Shown piece after piece: positions 3,390 through 35,803 of a stretch of 40,546 nucleotides of DNA. Location of the stretch: IMG/VR virus record IMGVR_UViG_3300045282_000157, positions 1 through 40,546 of that record; one strand, 5' to 3'. Origin of the DNA: a virus. The notes beneath the pieces were generated by a model, which did not search any database, was not told where the DNA came from, and saw only the letters and a list, made by a program, of their open reading frames with translations. How positions within the stretch are numbered: position 1 is the stretch's first letter; every line of letters begins with the position of its first letter. The translations under genes were made by a program, and so were the position numbers.

Positions 3390-4915
3390 TGCCCATCGTG
3401 CAAAGCGCGGGCGCGCTGCAATCGCTCGGCGCGGCGCCGCTCGGGCTGGTCCACAGCGCGAGCGCCGGCGGCCCCTCGTGGTCGGGCCTCCAGTCGGCCT
3501 ACGCGACGATCTGGGCGAACAACCCGAACGTCCGCACGATGGTCGACTTTCTGTCGCGCAACTGCGCGCAGCTCGGGCTCCACTTCTTTCGGCGCGTGTC
3601 GGACACCGATCGCGTGCGCCTCTACAACTACGACGTGGCCTCGTGGTTCCGTCGCCCGAATACCGCGACCTCGCGCTATCGGTTGATCGAGGCGCTCCTC
3701 GGGGACCTCGGCGTGTACTTCAACGCGTTCTGGTTGAAGGTACGCAGCCAGGAGCAAGGCGGCGTCCGTGTCCGCTTCGTGCGTCTGCCGCCCCAAGAGG
3801 TCACGACGTACGGCGGGCTGATTCCGCGCGGGTTCACGTGGACCAACGGCACGAATGCGCCGCAACCGATCATCCCCGGGGATCTGTGCGTATTCGGCGG
3901 CTACAACGCGCTCGATCCGATCATCGGGCTCTCGCCGCTCGAAACGCTGCGGCGTCTGCTCGCCGAGGACTACGCCGCCGGGCAGTACCGCGAAGCCTAT
4001 TGGCAAAACGCCGGGCGCATGGAAGGCGTGATCCAGCGGCCAAAGGATGCGCCGAAGTGGACGCCGGATCAGAAACGCGAATGGCGCAAGCAATGGCAGG
4101 AGCGATTCGCCGGTCCGCAGAACGCCGGCATGGTCCCGATCCTCGAGGACGGCATGGTGTGGGCCAACACGTCGCACAGCGCGAAGGATGCCGAGTACCT
4201 CCAGGCGCGCAAACTCTCGCGCGAGGAGTGCGCGTCGGCGTACCACATCCCGCCGCCGATGGTCGGCATCCTCGACCACGCGACGTTCAGCAACATCAAG
4301 GAGCAACACAAACAGCTGTACGCGGACACGCTCGGGCCATGGCTGGAAATGATTCAAGAGGAAATCGAGGCGCAGATCCTGCCCGAGTCGAGCGACAGCA
4401 CCGACGTGTACTGCGAGTTCAACATCGCCGAAAAGCTCAAGGGCAGTTTCGAGGAGCAAGCCGCGGCGCTGCAAGCGTCGGTGGGGCGCCCGTTCATGAC
4501 GGCGAACGAAGCGCGCGCGCGCCTGAACCTGCCCGCGATCACCGATGACCCGACCGCCGATCAACTGGCCGCGCAGCAAGGCGGGCCCTCGACGCCGGCC
4601 GCGGCCGCGCCCCTCGATCCGACGACCGGCGCGCACATCATCGACATCACGCCGCACGCGCTCGAGCACACCACGCGCAAGCATCTCCAGCGACAACGGG
4701 ATCGACTGGCGCGCGTGCCGGATGCGCAACGCGCCGAGGCGCTCGACGTGTCGCGCTGCGTCCGTGAACTGGCCGCGGATCTGGCCGCCCACGTAGGCCC
4801 CGATCGCGCGACCGCCTACGCGACCCGCGTCACGCTCGGGACCTACATGCAGCTGCGCGAGGGCCGCGATCCGTTTGTGTCCAATCGGGAGATTCCATCA
4901 TGTCTGAATCCCTAG
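3389..4915 (+). CDS. Portal protein, HK97 type
   Basis: A 508-residue portal, the dodecameric ring at the special capsid vertex through which DNA enters and leaves. Family landmarks are the N-terminal NNPNVRTMVDFLSRN helix, a YNALDPIIGLSPLETLRR segment, the EYLQARKLSREECASAYHIPPPMVG block and the following NIKEQHKQLY and TLGPWLEMIQEEIEAQIL clip/stem helices. The ATG at 3389 overlaps the upstream stop and begins a normal N-terminus; an in-frame GTG at 3365 is less likely. The C-terminal 100 residues are Ala/Pro-rich and then helical. Overlaps the protease gene by 16 bases. Confidence 0.95.
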   Translation: MPIVQSAGALQSLGAAPLGLVHSASAGGPSWSGLQSAYATIWANNPNVRTMVDFLSRNCAQLGLHFFRRVSDTDRVRLYNYDVASWFRRPNTATSRYRLIEALLGDLGVYFNAFWLKVRSQEQGGVRVRFVRLPPQEVTTYGGLIPRGFTWTNGTNAPQPIIPGDLCVFGGYNALDPIIGLSPLETLRRLLAEDYAAGQYREAYWQNAGRMEGVIQRPKDAPKWTPDQKREWRKQWQERFAGPQNAGMVPILEDGMVWANTSHSAKDAEYLQARKLSREECASAYHIPPPMVGILDHATFSNIKEQHKQLYADTLGPWLEMIQEEIEAQILPESSDSTDVYCEFNIAEKLKGSFEEQAAALQASVGRPFMTANEARARLNLPAITDDPTADQLAAQQGGPSTPAAAAPLDPTTGAHIIDITPHALEHTTRKHLQRQRDRLARVPDAQRAEALDVSRCVRELAADLAAHVGPDRATAYATRVTLGTYMQLREGRDPFVSNREIPSCLNP

Positions 4916-5898
4916 TCGGCGGCATCGATCGCGTCGTCGCGTTCGCGCTGGAACATCCGTGGGCGCTGACCGCCGAGATGCGCGCCTTGATCGGTGAACT
5001 GCTCGCGCGTCGGCTCGTGGGGCAACGCGCCACCGAGGAGGAGATCAGCGCCGCGGTCGGCGCGCGGCGACAGAAGGTCGGCGCCTCGGGCGGGATCGCG
5101 GTGATCCCGATCCATGGCGTCATTTCGCCGCGCATGAACATGCTGTCGGAGATGTCGGGCGGCGCGACGTGCGACGGCATCAGCGCCGATCTGTCGGAGG
5201 CGCTCGCGACCAGCCCGCGCGCGATTGTGCTCGACATCGATTCGCCGGGCGGCAACGTGGCCGGTGGGCACGAGCTCGCCCGCGAGGTCCTGGCCGCGCG
5301 CGCGAAAGTGCCGGTCATCGCGCAGTCGAATCACTTGATGGGATCGCTCGCGTACTGGATTGGATCGTGCGCCACGGAAATCGTCGCCTCGCCGTCGTCG
5401 CTGGTCGGGAGCGTCGGCGTCTACACGCTCTACAACGACATCTCCGCCGCGCTCGATCAAATGGGCATCAAGCGCACGCTCATCGCCGGAGGCGGCGCCT
5501 ACAAGGGCGAGGGCGCCGACGGCGGGCCGCTCAGCGAGGAGGCGCTCGCCCATCGCAAGGCCATCGTCGGCGGGTTCGCCGATCAGTTTCTGGCCGATGT
5601 CGCGGCGGGCCGCGGCGTCGAGGTCGGGATCGTGCGCGAGACGTACGGGCAGGGCCGCGTGTTCCGCGCGCCCGAGGCGCTGCGCGTCGGCATGGTCAAT
5701 CGCATCGGGACGCTTCACGAAACGATTGCGCGCCTCGGAGGCAGTGTCGCCGCCCCTGCCCCGCTGGCCGCTCGCACGACGCCGCCAGCCACGGCCCAGG
5801 AGCCGCCTCTCGCGGCCACGGCCCAGGAGCACGCCGCGATCGTCGCCGAGCAACTCGAACTGGTGCGGCTGTTGGTCGAGACGGGAGTCACCCCATGA
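4900..5898 (+). CDS. Head maturation protease, S49 (SppA-like) family
   Basis: A 332-residue protein of the ClpP/crotonase fold class that trims the capsid precursor during head maturation. The core runs from IAVIPIHGVISPR (about residue 67) through VLDIDSPGGNVAGG to LMGSLAYWIGS, where Ser149 sits at the position of the S49 nucleophile. Lys202 in AYKGEGADGG fits the catalytic lysine. The last 50 residues are Ala/Pro-rich. Its place between portal and capsid genes supports the role. The stop overlaps the capsid start (ATGA). Confidence 0.92.
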   Translation: MSESLVGGIDRVVAFALEHPWALTAEMRALIGELLARRLVGQRATEEEISAAVGARRQKVGASGGIAVIPIHGVISPRMNMLSEMSGGATCDGISADLSEALATSPRAIVLDIDSPGGNVAGGHELAREVLAARAKVPVIAQSNHLMGSLAYWIGSCATEIVASPSSLVGSVGVYTLYNDISAALDQMGIKRTLIAGGGAYKGEGADGGPLSEEALAHRKAIVGGFADQFLADVAAGRGVEVGIVRETYGQGRVFRAPEALRVGMVNRIGTLHETIARLGGSVAAPAPLAARTTPPATAQEPPLAATAQEHAAIVAEQLELVRLLVETGVTP

Positions 5899-25590: not shown

Positions 25591-25820
25591 TGGCCGCGCC
25601 CCTGGCGACCTGCACTGAACCCGTATTCGATCGCCTCTCGCCAGACGAGCAGGAGGTGATCATCGAGGTCGTGGCCGAATGTCTACTCGCACAGGCGCTC
25701 GAGGACCTCGCGAAGAAAAGCGAGCCGACCAGCGACAACCGACCGACGCTCCCGCTGCCAGTGGCGACGACGCCGCCAGCGAGGGCGCACCTGCGACTGG
25801 CGCGATCGCGCCGAGCCTGA
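25590..25820 (+). CDS. Small hypothetical protein overlapping the exonuclease start
   Basis: A 76-residue protein from an ATG coupled by TGATG. Residues 10-45 form an acidic helix (FDRLSPDEQEVIIEVVAECLLAQALEDL). Its 3' 142 bases overlap the next gene in another frame, and its C-terminus is Arg/Pro-rich, as expected of a region constrained by a second frame. Either this gene or the proposed start of the next is partly wrong. Confidence 0.5.
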   Translation: MAAPLATCTEPVFDRLSPDEQEVIIEVVAECLLAQALEDLAKKSEPTSDNRPTLPLPVATTPPARAHLRLARSRRA

Positions 25821-26716
25821 TCACCGAGCCGGGCGTCTACGACATCCCGGCCGCGCACTATCACGCCGACCCCTGCCCGGAGCCGTCGCTCTCGTCCTCC
25901 ATCTGCAAAATGCTGTGTCTGGAATCCGCCGCGCACGCGTTTCATGCGCATCCGCGGCTGAACCCTGGCGCCACCGAGGAGGAAGCGGAGCGGTTCGATA
26001 TCGGGACCGCCGCCCACGCCTTGCTGCTGGAAGGGCGCAGCGCCATCGCGATCATCGAGGCAAAGGACTATCGCACGCTCGACGCGAAGTCACAACGCGA
26101 GGCCGCGTATGCGCGCGGGCTCACGCCGCTCCTGGCGGCACGATGGGCCGAGGTGCAAGCGATGGTCGCGAGCGCCCGCACGCAGCTGCAGGAGCACACC
26201 GACGGCGGCGCCGCGATGTTCACCGAGGGCCAACCCGAGCGCACGCTCGTGTGGCGCGATGGCGATGTCTGGTGCCGCGCGCGACTCGATTGGGTGCGTG
26301 TCGGATCGGTCGCGGGTGTCAGCGTGAACATCGCGGACCCGCTCGCGCGCGCCTGCATCGATGACTACAAGAGCACCGGCGCGACCGCCAATCCCGACGC
26401 GTGGACGCGCAGCCTGTTTTTCGCGGGCTTCGATCTGCAAGCCGCGTGGTACGTGCGCGGGCTCAAGGCGCTGACCGGCGTCGAGGCCACGTTCCGATTC
26501 GCGGTGCAGGAGACTTTTCCGCCGTACGCCCTGGCGGTGATCGGCCTCAATCCAGACGCGCTCCTCCTCGCCGAAAAAAAGTGCCTCTACGCGCTCGACA
26601 AGTGGCGCGAGGCGCGCGCCTCGGGGAAGTGGATCGGGTATCCGCGGCGGACCTGCTACGCGACGCTGCCGCCGATTCACGAATCGTGGTGGCTCGAAAA
26701 GGAGATGACGACGTGA
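25679..26716 (+). CDS. RecE-like exonuclease, PD-(D/E)XK fold
   Basis: A 345-residue protein. After a poorly conserved 48-residue N-terminus, the family opening LITEPGVYDIPAAHYHADP and SLSSSICKMLCLESAAHAF is clear. The catalytic core has RLDWVRV (Asp204) and IDDYKSTG (Asp229, Lys231), followed by LQAAWYVRGLKALTG and FRFAVQETFPPYA. RecE-type enzymes resect double-stranded ends to give 3' overhangs for annealing. No ATG, GTG or TTG exists between 25679 and the conserved core, so I keep ATG 25679. A Sak4-like partner lies 2.3 kb downstream. Confidence 0.85.
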   Translation: MSTRTGARGPREEKRADQRQPTDAPAASGDDAASEGAPATGAIAPSLITEPGVYDIPAAHYHADPCPEPSLSSSICKMLCLESAAHAFHAHPRLNPGATEEEAERFDIGTAAHALLLEGRSAIAIIEAKDYRTLDAKSQREAAYARGLTPLLAARWAEVQAMVASARTQLQEHTDGGAAMFTEGQPERTLVWRDGDVWCRARLDWVRVGSVAGVSVNIADPLARACIDDYKSTGATANPDAWTRSLFFAGFDLQAAWYVRGLKALTGVEATFRFAVQETFPPYALAVIGLNPDALLLAEKKCLYALDKWREARASGKWIGYPRRTCYATLPPIHESWWLEKEMTT

Positions 26717-27043: not shown

Positions 27044-27817
27044 ATGGCTAAGAAGCAGGATAGCAGGAAACCGGCGACGCATCAGATCACCGAAGTCATT
27101 CGACTGACCGAAGGTCGCCTAGACGTGTGTCTGGTGGGCAGCAGCGGATTCATTGCCAACCGCATGAGCAACAAGGGACTGCGCGAACTGTTGTTCCCTG
27201 GCGGCGGCCGACAAGGGTTGAAACACGAACCGTTGTTGGAGTACCGCGGCTCGCCCTACACCTTCAAGGACCCCCACGCGCCGACCCTGTTGGCGCACTT
27301 GGCGTCAGCGTTCAAATTGTCGCTGACCAACGCGGCGCTCGACACACAAGGCATGAAGAAAGCCCAAATCGGGCGCCTGGTGTGGGTGGAAGGGGAACTA
27401 ATCCCGATCTACGGGGTGCCGCAAATGTCGATGATGACGGTGCGGTCCGCCGACATCAACCGCACGCCAGACGTTCGCACACGCGCCATTGTGCCGGAGT
27501 GGGCATGTCGAATCACGATCACCTACCCCGAGCAATTGATCAAACCGCAAGCGATCATCAACTTGCTGGCGAATGGTGGCCTGAACCAAGGAGTCGGCGA
27601 CGGTCGACCCGAAAAAGCCAAACTGCACTTCGGCCGGTTCCGACTCACGGACGCGAATGATCCCGATTACAAACGCATCGTGAAAACCGGCGGCCGTGCC
27701 GCGCAGGTCGCGGCCATGGCTGCGGAACCGCCCGTGTGTTACGACGCCGAAACCGAAGAACTGTACGGGTGGTTCGTCGAGGAGCGGAAGCGCCGCGAAC
27801 TGAAGGGAGTCGCGTAG
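27044..27817 (+). CDS. Conserved recombination-region protein, unknown function
   Basis: A 257-residue protein with a strong GGAGG site. Landmarks: GFIANRMSNKGLRELLFPGG, AHLASAFKLSLTNAALD, IPIYGVPQMSMMTVRSADINRTPDVRTRA, CRITITYPEQL, INLLANGGLNQGVGDGRPEK and FGRFRLTD. I recall this overall pattern (an N-R-M-S-K start, a D-VR-RA middle and a G-GDGRPE-FGRF end) in many phages without an assigned activity. The position between exonuclease and Sak4-like ATPase suggests a role in DNA recombination or single-strand handling; that is inference. Confidence 0.75.
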   Translation: MAKKQDSRKPATHQITEVIRLTEGRLDVCLVGSSGFIANRMSNKGLRELLFPGGGRQGLKHEPLLEYRGSPYTFKDPHAPTLLAHLASAFKLSLTNAALDTQGMKKAQIGRLVWVEGELIPIYGVPQMSMMTVRSADINRTPDVRTRAIVPEWACRITITYPEQLIKPQAIINLLANGGLNQGVGDGRPEKAKLHFGRFRLTDANDPDYKRIVKTGGRAAQVAAMAAEPPVCYDAETEELYGWFVEERKRRELKGVA

Positions 27818-27819
27818 TC

Positions 27820-28284
27820 ATGCGTCTGACGCGCGCGCAGATCGCAGCCATCCGATCTCTCGAAAACCGACGCGGCCAACTCACGCCACGGCAAGTCGTC
27901 GCGGCGGCGAAAAATCCGCGGAGCCCGCTGCACTCGTTGTTCGATTGGGATATCCAGCAGGCAGCGGAACACTGGTGGCTGCATCGCGCGCGCGTCGTCA
28001 TCGGCGCTGTGACGATTCAAGTGCAGACCCGCGAGGTCACCTACAAAGCCTCGGCGTACATGGTGGACACCGCCGTCGATGGTCAGGGCTACAGGAGCGT
28101 CGCTGCCCTGAAAACCGACGTGGCGCAAGCGCGCGAGAGTTTGATCTACACGCTGGAAATGGCGGCGGGCCACCTGCGGCGGTCGTTCGATCTGGCCGCG
28201 CCGCTCGGACTCTCTAACGAGATCGATCAACTACTGCACGACATCGCGAGCGTGCAGCGGGTAATCACGACGAAGGCAGCATAG
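27820..28284 (+). CDS. Conserved phage protein, unknown function
   Basis: A 154-residue protein from ATG 27820. The N-terminal pattern LTPRQVVAAAKNPRSPLHSLFDWDIQQAAEHWW followed by ARVVIGAVTIQVQ, quoted here in pieces (LTPRQVVAAA, SPLHSLFDWD), is widespread in phage early regions as I recall. The C-terminal half is helical (VAALKTDVAQARESLIYTLEM). Function unknown. Two bases separate it from the upstream gene. Directly followed by the 5-base periodic tract. Confidence 0.72.
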   Translation: MRLTRAQIAAIRSLENRRGQLTPRQVVAAAKNPRSPLHSLFDWDIQQAAEHWWLHRARVVIGAVTIQVQTREVTYKASAYMVDTAVDGQGYRSVAALKTDVAQARESLIYTLEMAAGHLRRSFDLAAPLGLSNEIDQLLHDIASVQRVITTKAA

Positions 28285-29012
28285 GTGTGGCGGGCCGAGG
28301 CTGGGTCAGGCACCACCAGCCCCGGCGAGGCTCGGCGGGCCGGGCGGGTCAAGGTGGGGCGCGGGCGATCCGGCAAGGATTGGCCGGGCGGGGACTGGAT
28401 TGACAAGGCGCGGCGGCCGCGACGTGGATGCCGTGGCGCGAACTGGCGAGGCGAGGCGCGGCGCGGTCGGGCGGGCGAGGTTGGGCAACGAAAGACCGGG
28501 CGAGGCGCGGCTGGGTCGCGCATGGCGCGGAGCGGCACGGCGAGCACGCCGCGGACTGACGAGCCAAGGGGGAGGAATGGCGAGGCAGGGACTGGCGCGT
28601 CGGCACCGGGCATCACGAGGCAGGCGGGCCGACGCTAGGACAGGTTGGGCCAGGACAGGCGAGGTCCGGATGGGCGGGCGCGGCTAGGTTGGGCCTGTTG
28701 CGGCTCGGTCAGGCGCGGGACGGCGAGGCGTGACATGGCGAGCGCGACAGGGCGTGACGTGGGATCGCATCGAATGGCGAGGCATCGCGGGGCGCGGCAG
28801 GCTAGGCGAGGTATGGCCTCGACAGGCGAGGCGTATCGCGGCAAGGACCGGCGACCCATCGCGGGGTGCGGCAGGTTCGGTCCGGGCTAGGACCGTTCCG
28901 GAATGACACGACAAGGTTCGGCTGGGTCGGGAAAGGCAAGCCGGGCATGAGGTCGCATGGTGAGGCGTGGCGGGGAGCGCATTGTTATGGCGAATGGAGA
29001 GGCGCGGCAGGT
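28285..29012 (+). repeat. G-rich tract with 5-base periodicity, non-coding
   Basis: About 728 bases in which GG recurs every 5 bases (GGCGA, GGCGC, GGCAA, GGTTG and similar blocks). For example G is present at all 12 positions 28682, 28687 ... 28737, at all 12 positions 28865 ... 28920, and at 11 of 12 positions 28445 ... 28500. The phase shifts by one or two bases a few times along the tract. A 5-base period does not fit codons. Frames that stay open here (Gly/Arg/Ala-rich) follow from composition. The tract ends at the start codon of the Sak4-like gene and supplies the bases before it. Confidence 0.85.
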
Positions 29013-29978
29013 ATGGGTTTTACTTTTCGACCGGCAACACGTGAAAACGTCCCGCTGCTGATCGGCCTATCAGGAGGGACCGGCAGCGGGAAAACGTACA
29101 CCGCGATGCGCCTCGCAAAAGGGATCGCCGGCGATCGGCCGTTCGCCGTGATCGACACCGAGGCGTCACGCGCGCGCGCCTACGCTGACGCCTTCCAATT
29201 CGATCACGGTGACCTAACGCCGCCGTTCACGTCGCAGCGGTACGGTGACGCGATCAAAGCCGCCGACGACGCGCACTATCCGGTGATCGTGGTCGATTCG
29301 ATGTCGCACGAGTACGCGGGCGACGGCGGCACGCTCGACCAGCAGGAGGCGGAGCTCGAGCGGATGGCGGGCGACGATTTCAAACGACGCGAGGCGTGCA
29401 AGATGGCGAGTTGGATCAAACCGAAGATGGCCCACAAGCAATTCGTGCAGCGTCTCCTCCAACTGCGTGCGCACCTGATCCTCTGCTTCCGCGCCGAGCC
29501 CAAGATCGAAATGGTCCGCGGCGAAGGCGGCAGGATGGAGATCCGCGAGAAGCAATCGCTCACCGGCCTCAATGGCTGGATTCCGGTCTGTGAAAAAAAC
29601 CTGCCCTACGAACTAACCGCGAGCTTTCTCCTGATGGCCGACAAGCCGGGCGTGCCGCTGCCGATCAAGCTCCAGGCGCAGCACCGCGATCTGTTTCCGC
29701 TCGATCAACCGATCACCGAGGCGTCGGGCGCGCGCCTCGCCGAGTGGGCCGCGGGCGCACCGCCGGATTGGGCGAAGCGGATCGCCGCCGCGCCGTCGGC
29801 CGCGGCGTTGCAGCAAATCGTGCGCGACCTCGATGCCGTGAAAACCTCGCTCACGAAAGAGACGCTCGCCACATTGAAGGCTCACATCAAAGATCGCAGC
29901 AACGCGCTGACGGCGACCGGGAAAAAGAAAGCGGCGGCGCCGGTGACCGCGGGCGATCTGAATTGGGGGAGGCCATGA
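29013..29978 (+). CDS. Sak4-like RecA-fold ATPase (AAA_24)
   Basis: A 321-residue protein. The ATG at 29013 starts the conserved region; the open frame upstream is the periodic tract. Walker A GGTGSGKT (residues 21-28), Walker B VIVVDSMSHE (Asp95), then AWIKPKMAHK-like WIKPKMAHKQFVQRLLQL and LILCFRAEPKIE, and an EIREKQSLTGLNG segment. This is the pattern of AAA_24/Sak4 phage proteins, single-strand annealing proteins related to RecA/Rad51 cores. Together with the RecE-like nuclease it would form the recombination system. C-terminal 60 residues are a helical extension ending in a Lys/Ala tail. Confidence 0.85.
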   Translation: MGFTFRPATRENVPLLIGLSGGTGSGKTYTAMRLAKGIAGDRPFAVIDTEASRARAYADAFQFDHGDLTPPFTSQRYGDAIKAADDAHYPVIVVDSMSHEYAGDGGTLDQQEAELERMAGDDFKRREACKMASWIKPKMAHKQFVQRLLQLRAHLILCFRAEPKIEMVRGEGGRMEIREKQSLTGLNGWIPVCEKNLPYELTASFLLMADKPGVPLPIKLQAQHRDLFPLDQPITEASGARLAEWAAGAPPDWAKRIAAAPSAAALQQIVRDLDAVKTSLTKETLATLKAHIKDRSNALTATGKKKAAAPVTAGDLNWGRP

Positions 29979-30355: not shown

Positions 30356-30700
30356 ATGCGGATGACTGGCCTCTGGTGGTGGATCGATCGCTGGCGCACG
30401 AGCGATGCGTTTCGCGTGATGACGCTCGAAGAACAGGGTGCGTACCGCAACCTGCTCGATGAGGCCGCCTTGTCGGACGGCGTGTTGCCCAACGACGAGC
30501 GAATCCTGGCGCGCGCGAGCGGTGATGCCACGCGGTGGCCCGACTTACGGGAACGCCTGCTCGCGAAGTTCACCCTCACGCCCGCGGGTTATCGAAATGA
30601 AACACTCGACGCCGTGTTGCGCGAGTCGCGCCTGAGGGCCGACAAGCAACGCCGTTACCGTAACCGCCACAGTAACGGGAAGGCGCAACGTCATGCGTAA
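30356..30700 (+). CDS. DUF1376-type replication protein, N-terminal part (split)
   Basis: A 114-residue protein. WWWIDRWRTSDAFRVMTLEEQGAYRNLLDEA, quoted in parts (WIDRWRTSDAFRVM, LEEQGAYRNLLDEA), then LPNDERILARASG and YRNETLDAVL, is the DUF1376 (YdaU-like) domain found at the N-terminus of phage replication proteins. Full relatives are longer and continue through a variable linker into a helical C-terminus. Here the frame stops at RNRHSNGKAQRHA, and the expected linker and C-terminus continue in the +1 frame from an overlapping ATG. Confidence 0.75.
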   Translation: MRMTGLWWWIDRWRTSDAFRVMTLEEQGAYRNLLDEAALSDGVLPNDERILARASGDATRWPDLRERLLAKFTLTPAGYRNETLDAVLRESRLRADKQRRYRNRHSNGKAQRHA

Positions 30701-31172
30701 CGTCGCGCGTCATGTCGCCAGTAACAACAGGGCACCTCTGGATCTGGATCTGGATCTGGATCTGGATCTGGATCGCGCGGGCGCGTTCGCCCCGTCCGCC
30801 TTTGTACAACCAATTAGAACCTCGGCGCTAAAGCGCCGAATTTTCCACATGTTGAAAAAGGCCCACGATTTCGAAACTCGGTCGCGGCTGCTTGCGCGGA
30901 TTGTGCGCACGTTGCTGGCGTCCGAGACGTTCGACTCGCTCACCGACTTGACCGAGGCGCTGAAGTGTCGGTGCGCACAACTGCGCATCAGCTGGACCCC
31001 CGACGACATCACCGAGGCGTATCGACTGGTCGAATCGAACACGCCGCTCCCCGGCCTGCCGCGACCACGATGGACGGAGGCGCAAAAACGCATGTGGCGT
31101 GAGGAGTGGGCCAAGCGCGAGTTCATCGAGGTCACCGTGTTCGGCGACCGGACGGTTTGGGTTCAGCGGTGA
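30693..31172 (+). CDS. C-terminal part of the split DUF1376-type protein
   Basis: A 159-residue protein whose ATG overlaps the preceding gene's end by 8 bases (ATGCGTAA). It opens with a linker RNVARHVASNNRAP and six Leu-Asp dipeptides, then a helical domain (HMLKKAHDFETRSRLLARIVRTLL, in part) and a basic C-terminus with KRMWREEWAKREF. The linker type and the register suggest that both pieces derive from one gene by a 1-base frame change, or that coupled re-initiation makes two subunits. Confidence 0.65.
   Translation: MRNVARHVASNNRAPLDLDLDLDLDLDRAGAFAPSAFVQPIRTSALKRRIFHMLKKAHDFETRSRLLARIVRTLLASETFDSLTDLTEALKCRCAQLRISWTPDDITEAYRLVESNTPLPGLPRPRWTEAQKRMWREEWAKREFIEVTVFGDRTVWVQR
30737..30774 (+). 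repeat. Hexanucleotide microsatellite (GGATCT)n
   Basis: About six tandem copies of GGATCT encode the (Leu-Asp) linker. Because the unit is 6 bases, slippage would change linker length without changing frame. Confidence 0.9.
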
Positions 31173-35393: not shown

Positions 35394-35767
35394 TGCCGCG
35401 CGCGCGCGTCTGCTCGATGCGCCACCGAGTCGCGGCTGTGTTCCTCGACAATGCGGGAATGTGCGCGTGTTTGAATGAGGCCGAGGCGGACGCATTCGCG
35501 CGCGCGGTCAACCGCTTCGACCAGCGGACCACCACACACGATCGCGCGGAATGCGAGGCCGATGCGCGCGCGGTTCCACCGCACGCCGCGCCGGATGCGG
35601 ACGAGATGCGCGACCGCCAGAAAGGACCGGAAACCCCTTTGCGAACCAAAGCCGGGGGGCCAACAAATCCCGTTGACAGCCCAATCCTGAGAAACCCTGC
35701 GGCCCTCCGTCACGATGCCGCGAATTTGGCACAGGGGGGGGCTTGGCGAAAACCCCGAAATCGTTAG
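35393..35767 (+). CDS. Small hypothetical protein with uncertain C-terminus
   Basis: 124 codons from an ATG overlapping the previous stop (TGATG). The first 70 residues look coding (RVCSMRHRVAAVFLDNAGMC, EAEADAFARAVNRF). The last 50 (about 35620 onward) look unlike protein, with runs of G and low codon bias, so the true gene may end in non-coding DNA by chance. No domain recognised. The following 36 bases hold TTAAGGAG for the ParB-like gene. Confidence 0.5.
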   Translation: MPRARVCSMRHRVAAVFLDNAGMCACLNEAEADAFARAVNRFDQRTTTHDRAECEADARAVPPHAAPDADEMRDRQKGPETPLRTKAGGPTNPVDSPILRNPAALRHDAANLAQGGAWRKPRNR

Positions 35768-35803
35768 GTAATTCGCACGAAAGCCCTTTAAGGAGTAAAC
35801 CTC

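Follow-up and report, generated by a model that had tools for sequence, protein, structure and literature searches.

What kind of element keeps a pair of guanines at every fifth base, and why does it lie directly before a recombinase gene in a phage genome? The question is raised by the IMG/VR virus record IMGVR_UViG_3300045282_000157, whose 40,546 nucleotides are referred to here as the window. A sequence-only reading of this DNA had described the tract upstream of a Sak4-like gene and had added that no named element of this kind was known. That statement is outdated. A preprint from the Doudna laboratory (bioRxiv 2026.04.26.720920, PMC13142463) named VIPR (Viral Interference Programmable Repeat), in which a phage-encoded RAMP protein, Vipr, is combined with guide RNAs of 9-16 YNNGG repeats. 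The NN dinucleotides of these guides read double-stranded DNA, one target base being skipped per unit, and seven types have been published (PMC13142463). A literature search for other VIPR papers found none beyond this one. Here we report that the tract in the window is, with little room for doubt, a VIPR guide RNA (vrRNA) array. The basis for this reading is the anatomy of the tract, the protein family of its neighbor, the association of vipr, an accessory gene and the tract, exact targets that conform to the VIPR rules, and the difference between those targets and the phage's own genes.

A five-base rhythm in non-coding DNA

Segmentation placed the best extent of the tract at ~28284-29020, and its periodicity was compared with that of 1000 dinucleotide-preserving shuffles. 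GG-GG pairs at lag 5 numbered 73, against 30.4 +/- 4.9 in the shuffles (maximum, 49), and there were 64 pairs each at lags 10 and 15 (shuffle maxima, 46 and 45). The period-5 power of the best local 200-base stretch was 20.2, compared with a shuffle maximum of 10.2 and a window-wide median of 0.64. Since the tract shifts phase, the Fourier peak of the whole tract at period 5 was weak, and the lag and local tests were used instead. The Fourier or autocorrelation check against shuffles suggested by the sequence-only reading thus gave a significant 5-base peak in these tests, and the rhythm is real. The 12 of 12 blocks in phase at 28682-28737 and 28865-28920 were found again. The description of almost every block as GGNNN was too strong, as about 100 of 140-150 blocks (~70%) start with GG; the base after GG is C or T in 79% of these, and the motif is therefore GGYNN. 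The phase shifts, which had been described as few, do exist, but they are regular. Most are 4-base units (GGCA or GGCG in part), so that successive shifts are 5n+4 bases apart (e.g., 54, 74, 54).

The tract is non-coding. It has strong period 5 and no period-3 signal (0.5, compared with 5.2 in the sak4 gene), and no protein-level similarity was detected between the window tract and that of a sister phage, while the adjoining Sak4 proteins are 66% identical. The earlier argument that a 5-base period does not come from codons was thereby borne out. Long open frames (e.g., 28285-28638) could be taken as a sign of a protein-coding region or of a simple low-complexity G-rich expansion, but they are present because stops are rare in G-rich sequence, and in related arrays the NN positions carry about 0 bits, unlike those of slippage repeats. 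We give this explanation practically no weight. A search of the tract against Rfam returned zero family matches, and no exact inverted repeats or tails were found when these were looked for.

A punctuated array of guides

The array occupies positions 28284..29020 of the plus strand and consists of GGYNN repeats arranged in about 11-12 guides with 4-base phase shifts between them. The runs between shifts contain about 9-14 units, with one shorter run, so that guides reach up to 14 dinucleotides. In its first third (28338-28468), where the tract is looser, some guide boundaries are uncertain. Four guides were followed further, all on the plus strand: guide 1 (28284..28333, 10 units), guide E (28474..28543, 14 units; NN = GA TG AA AA CG GA GC TG CG AT GC GC AC GA), guide B (28672..28741, 14 units; NN = CG GC TA TG CT GC TC CA GC AC GA GT AT GA), and guide D (28800..28869, 14 units). 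Guides E and B each fill one 14-unit interval bounded by 4-base breaks.

GGCA is the commonest 4-base punctuation in the arrays of the clade to which the window Vipr belongs (124 cases). Across the contexts of 123 GGCA breaks from related arrays, the information content is 1.3-1.9 bits at most G positions but about 0 at NN, a contrast that is as expected for a scaffold that carries a message. The earlier note had seen in the mixed spacers a selection on spacing rather than on an exact repeat. This view was upheld, as GGY is constant in VIPR and the address is written in the NN that separate one GGY from the next.

Inter-guide punctuation is clade-specific (L104, L163, L058, L059, L112, L066, L012) and includes GGCA, GGCG, TCNN, GGAAC(NN), GGCTAATG and a longer conserved tail; it could serve as a typing character or be a processing signal. 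In Mycobacterium phage arrays (L006, L007; in L007 at about 2840-2860), a terminal perfect hairpin, GGCTGG-GCAA-CCAGCC, was observed, which is a possible terminal tail. A tailless array with 4-base punctuation would, if true, represent a distinct packaging of many guides in one transcript, and its large size and punctuation allow a test of RNA processing.

Vipr and a conserved accessory gene precede the array

The gene at 27044..27817 (plus strand) encodes a protein of 257 amino acids that matches phrog_4652 (E=5e-9) and is predicted to be a RAMP-fold guide-RNA-binding protein, Vipr. Pfam and PADLOC searches with this protein gave zero matches. Early single-protein and two-sequence scans recovered few relatives, and a genome scan in the early search found none. 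In a single-sequence search of PDB sequences, the "SUSP1 Vipr protein" (36pp) ranked first with E=0.09, and the same entry was matched with E=5.8e-8 by a profile of six relatives and, over the full length, with E=4e-30 by one of 47 relatives (family profile A4). Alignment of the window Vipr family with SUSP1 Vipr by hhalign gave 99.6% probability. The AlphaFold2 model of the window protein has a predicted local distance difference test score (pLDDT) of 90.5, and its best Foldseek matches among solved structures were Csm3/Cas7-type RAMPs (probability 1.00). A comparison with predicted viral structures gave three significant matches, one of which carries the annotation of a Cas-associated RAMP protein from a siphovirus.

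Between vipr and the array, and contiguous with both, lies a gene of the phrog_15946 family (27820..28284, plus strand, 154 amino acids). Its homologs were found at 29 distinct loci including the window, all of them with vipr and a tract, and in most members of the larger Vipr clade the gene is located between or beside the two. This conserved position makes it a candidate vap. The AlphaFold2 model of the product is confident (pLDDT 94.6), but it matched no solved structure at E<0.001, and the protein showed no detectable relation to SUSP1 vap1 and nothing significant in the Pfam and PADLOC families. Upstream of vipr there is an exonuclease VIII-like gene (25679-26716; phrog_412, E=3e-58), which places the VIPR locus inside a recombination gene block.

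The usual partner of the tract

GGYNN tracts beside vipr, on the same strand, were found in the phages Pipp, Ecliptus, ByChance and Quico and in two IMG/VR contigs with Vipr relatives. The association was also approached from the opposite direction. IMG/VR was scanned with the DNA pattern (GGYNN)x12 alone, which yielded 120 loci, 114 of them with a tract by segmentation; a Vipr homolog is encoded in 86/114 tract loci, in 85 of them on the same strand, with a median gap of 17 bases. Under the same segmentation the SUSP1 vrRNAs appeared at the expected places with the same GGY/NN pattern and code. In the Vipr tree, the window protein groups with those of L061, L059, L008, L117, L003 and L058 (support 1.0; 40-51% identity). 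This group is nested in a larger clade that includes actinophages, and it is far from SUSP1 (type II).

These counts bear on the option that the sequence-only reading named first, namely that the tract is a DNA site for recombination, replication or R-loop formation used by the adjacent Sak4-like ATPase, in which the GG steps form a nucleoprotein or G-rich structure. In the window as well as in the sister locus L163 the tract does end at the start codon of Sak4, a short tract lies directly before a Sak4 homolog in L110, and the G-rich strand asymmetry is real. Nevertheless, among the loci collected first, only three apart from the window (L061, L048, L110) yielded a Sak4 homolog, and in L061 and L048 it is not adjacent to the tract, whereas Vipr accompanies 86/114 tracts. 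The position upstream of Sak4 in the window and L163 reflects shared ancestry, and the NN positions match genes exactly, as described below, so they are not random filler. The proposal that Sak4 would be the consistent partner of such tracts in other phages was not sustained, nor was that of a DNA site loaded by this ATPase, which we regard as very improbable. The L110 locus (4057-5080) itself has a single 13-unit GGYNN tract, with no Vipr within the 8.7 kb examined; this may be a guide that lacks a vipr of its own in the neighborhood.

Two guides match genes of rival phages

Nine-unit guide patterns, written NNxNNx, were scanned against IMG/VR and matched 6 contigs for guide E, 26 for guide B and 5 for guide D. 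For E, three contigs extend by three further units to 12 consecutive units, with 24/24 letters identical, and three contigs do likewise for B (12 consecutive units, 24/24 letters). The units of guide D outside the searched part match at chance level, and this guide has chance-level matches only. The reversed patterns of E and B gave 0 matches in the same target records, and only a skip of 1 in forward order yields 20/20 matches. Guide E in its 22-letter (11-unit) version gave 0 matches in 257 Gb of bacterial genomes, no target of the guides was found in 1.2 Mb of collected loci, and simple nucleotide matching against the phage's own genome showed no excess over reversed guides.

The targets of E and B are in the sense orientation. 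The NN dinucleotides fall on the first two positions of each codon; the skipped base is the third, at the wobble position, and differs from one target to another. The genes matched by E, in rival phages, are Sak4 orthologs with 66-78% identity to the Sak4 of the window over the aligned part; in G006 the matched site reads GAC TGG AAG AAG CGC GAG GCC TGC CGC ATG GCG GCG. Those matched by B, also in rival phages, encode S49 head-maturation proteases, at best 44% identical to that of the window. The own Sak4-like/AAA_24 ATPase gene is at 29013..29978 on the plus strand (PF13479, E=5e-10; phrog_1366, E=3e-59; phrog_124, Sak4-like, E=0.0013), and its guide E site, 29376-29411, differs in 4/12 dinucleotides. 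The own S49-type head maturation protease gene is at 4900..5898 on the plus strand (PF01343, E=5e-26; phrog_53, E=8e-69), and its guide B site, at about 5347-5388, matches in 20/28. At the guide sites the own copies read DFKRREACKMAS and AYWIGSCATEIV where the target copies read DWKKREACRMAA and AYWLASQATEVI, respectively. Judged from these sequences, Sak4 is both the neighbor of the array and, in rivals, a type of target.

Guide 1 decodes to VG(D/E)(C/W)(H/Q)T(H/Q)P(D/E)S, a JAMM/JAB-like motif, and a JAMM protease is its tentative target. It has 9-unit matches in two JAMM-motif genes (L169, L170), and a 10-unit target search gave no match. One of the two matched JAMM-type genes reads GDWHTHPEPVPKPS, which we take to resemble defense-associated JAB proteins.

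An array with fixed triplets could also be an RNA decoy or regulator with protein sites spaced by five bases. TRAP binds RNA at GAG/UAG every 5 nt, one subunit per triplet. A fixed triplet that recurs at such intervals is well suited to a single protein arranged as a ring or filament, and the GGY are probably protein sites in VIPR too. Yet from a decoy one would expect neither an adjacent vipr nor exact matches, with gaps, to genes of rival phages, and Rfam holds no match to the tract; its probability is very small. The option of an untranslated RNA with repeated binding sites, one of those offered by the sequence-only reading, fits a VIPR array, in which every Vipr subunit holds one GGY.

A sister phage aims at the same gene

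One of the contigs matched by guide E, the 43 kb contig L163/G004, has the gene order of the window: vipr (45% identity), accessory gene, a 649-base GGYNN tract and Sak4. The last guide of its array was used in no database search and hence was not selected by a target match. This guide matches another Sak4 site with 26/28 letters in G006 and G008 and 25/28 in G005 and G007, while the match to its own Sak4 is only 22/28; 300 shuffles of the unit order reached a maximum of 22. Here too, the skipped base is aligned with the wobble position. This guide is the strongest independent support: in both phages the array is directed against Sak4 of relatives and passes over the copy in its own genome. 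At the guide site (L171-L173; record site 35746-35787), the own Sak4 of G004 reads HEWSGENGVLDFQE, with A/T-rich codons, where relatives have HEWAGEGGILDWQE, which looks like self-escape from its own guide.

Is the array decaying?

Several observations weigh against the assignment to VIPR or against a fully active copy. The GG fidelity of the window array, about 70% of units, is below the roughly 81-90% of the named relatives' arrays. The window Vipr has the glycine loop, but with the sequence GVGDGRP instead of the GVGDWRP/GDFRQ of the family; the usual aromatic residue is replaced (W->G). Together, the loose tract and the altered loop could mean that this VIPR copy is partly decayed. Furthermore, convincing targets were found for only 2 of about 12 guides. 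Because guides E and B themselves served to pick out the contigs with their targets, the match counts in these contigs lack independence; what does count as independent is that the match runs on past the 9 units of the search, that the genes are orthologous to the phage's own and that the skipped base is aligned with the wobble position.

Decay of the array, with former guides now drifting without function, would account for the lower GG fidelity and the W-to-G change. On the other hand, two guides have perfect 12-unit matches to present-day phage genes, the vipr and accessory reading frames are both intact, and the sister L163 has a similarly loose yet punctuated 649-base array with a 26/28 target. 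We consider decay unlikely, although it deserves more credit than the other alternatives, and prefer the reading of a VIPR guide array.

Proposed mechanism and implications

Transcription, ribonucleoprotein assembly, DNA binding and repression are proposed here by analogy with the published SUSP1 and Pseudomonas fulva systems. The array would be co-transcribed with the upstream vipr and accessory genes and give rise to guide RNAs, the longest with 14 GGYNN units. On these, Vipr subunits, as single-RRM RAMP proteins related to the Cas7 backbone, would align along the GGY triplets and display the NN dinucleotides. The latter would pair with double-stranded DNA in the pattern NNxNNxNNx, so that in each unit one base of the target goes unread. 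With the unread base at the codon wobble position, a guide would read a protein motif despite synonymous changes. The bound complex may then repress genes of competing phages in the same cell, at least those for the Sak4-like recombinase and the S49 head protease, while the phage's own Sak4 and S49 copies would differ enough to be spared.

It is likely that the VIPR arrays of closely related phages are aimed at each other's orthologs of their own essential genes, with own copies spared by divergence at the guide sites, and that Sak4 is a recurrent battleground (two sites, two sister phages). If this is true, the competition of relatives within one host has left a fossil record in VIPR guides. 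The divergence of the own copies at the guide sites suggests a self/non-self rule. The VIPR code, including the one-base skip and the wobble alignment, is supported here from unrelated environmental phages, starting from DNA alone, and a phage recombinase and a head protease, neither of which appears in the preprint's main text (PMC13142463), are added as natural targets.

Other features of the window

Both contig ends (1-178 and 40412-40546) carry the same roughly 70-base GGGGGGCGCCTTGG tandem repeats, whose minus strand would encode a repeat rich in Pro, Lys and Ala. Probably the contig either breaks off within this GGGGGGCGCCTTGG array or is circular. At 30737-30774 the hexamer TCTGGA is repeated 6.3 times without error, encoding LDLDLD in the open reading frame 30693-31172, and is a possible slippage-prone tract.

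Comparison with known systems

TRAP shares with the window array a fixed triplet at 5-base spacing, but it has no guide function and its protein is unrelated. VIPR is a relative of CRISPR of simple design. With the backbone RAMPs of class 1 CRISPR-Cas (Csm3/Cas7) the locus shares the predicted fold and the guide-holding logic; it differs in that it has no CRISPR repeats or contiguous spacers, no other cas genes were found, and the sequence family is Vipr. Closer are the VIPR-like loci of the actinophages (Mycobacterium Quico and ByChance; Gordonia Pipp and Ecliptus), which have Vipr (25-28% identity), the phrog_15946 accessory gene and a GGYNN array with GGCA breaks. Their arrays are shorter (about 190-240 bases) with cleaner GG, and in the Mycobacterium phages the array is upstream of vipr.

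The characterized type II systems of Escherichia phage SUSP1 and the P. fulva prophage (PMC13142463; PDB 36pp) share with the window a Vipr homolog, one small accessory gene, same-strand GGY/NN guides, the 1-nt skip, and wobble-aligned targets in competing phage elements. Compared with SUSP1, the window has one contiguous array of ~12 guides with 4-base punctuation, without a structured 3' tail after each guide, an accessory protein unrelated to vap1, and a Vipr with a C-terminal extension (257 vs 195 amino acids). The missing tail does not exclude membership in VIPR, because the structured invariant 3' vrRNA tail was described for the characterized type II systems (SUSP1 clade) and array architectures vary by type (PMC13142463). 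The locus is thus a new member of VIPR, a kind of system described months earlier; its array is long and punctuated, and its natural targets are convincing.
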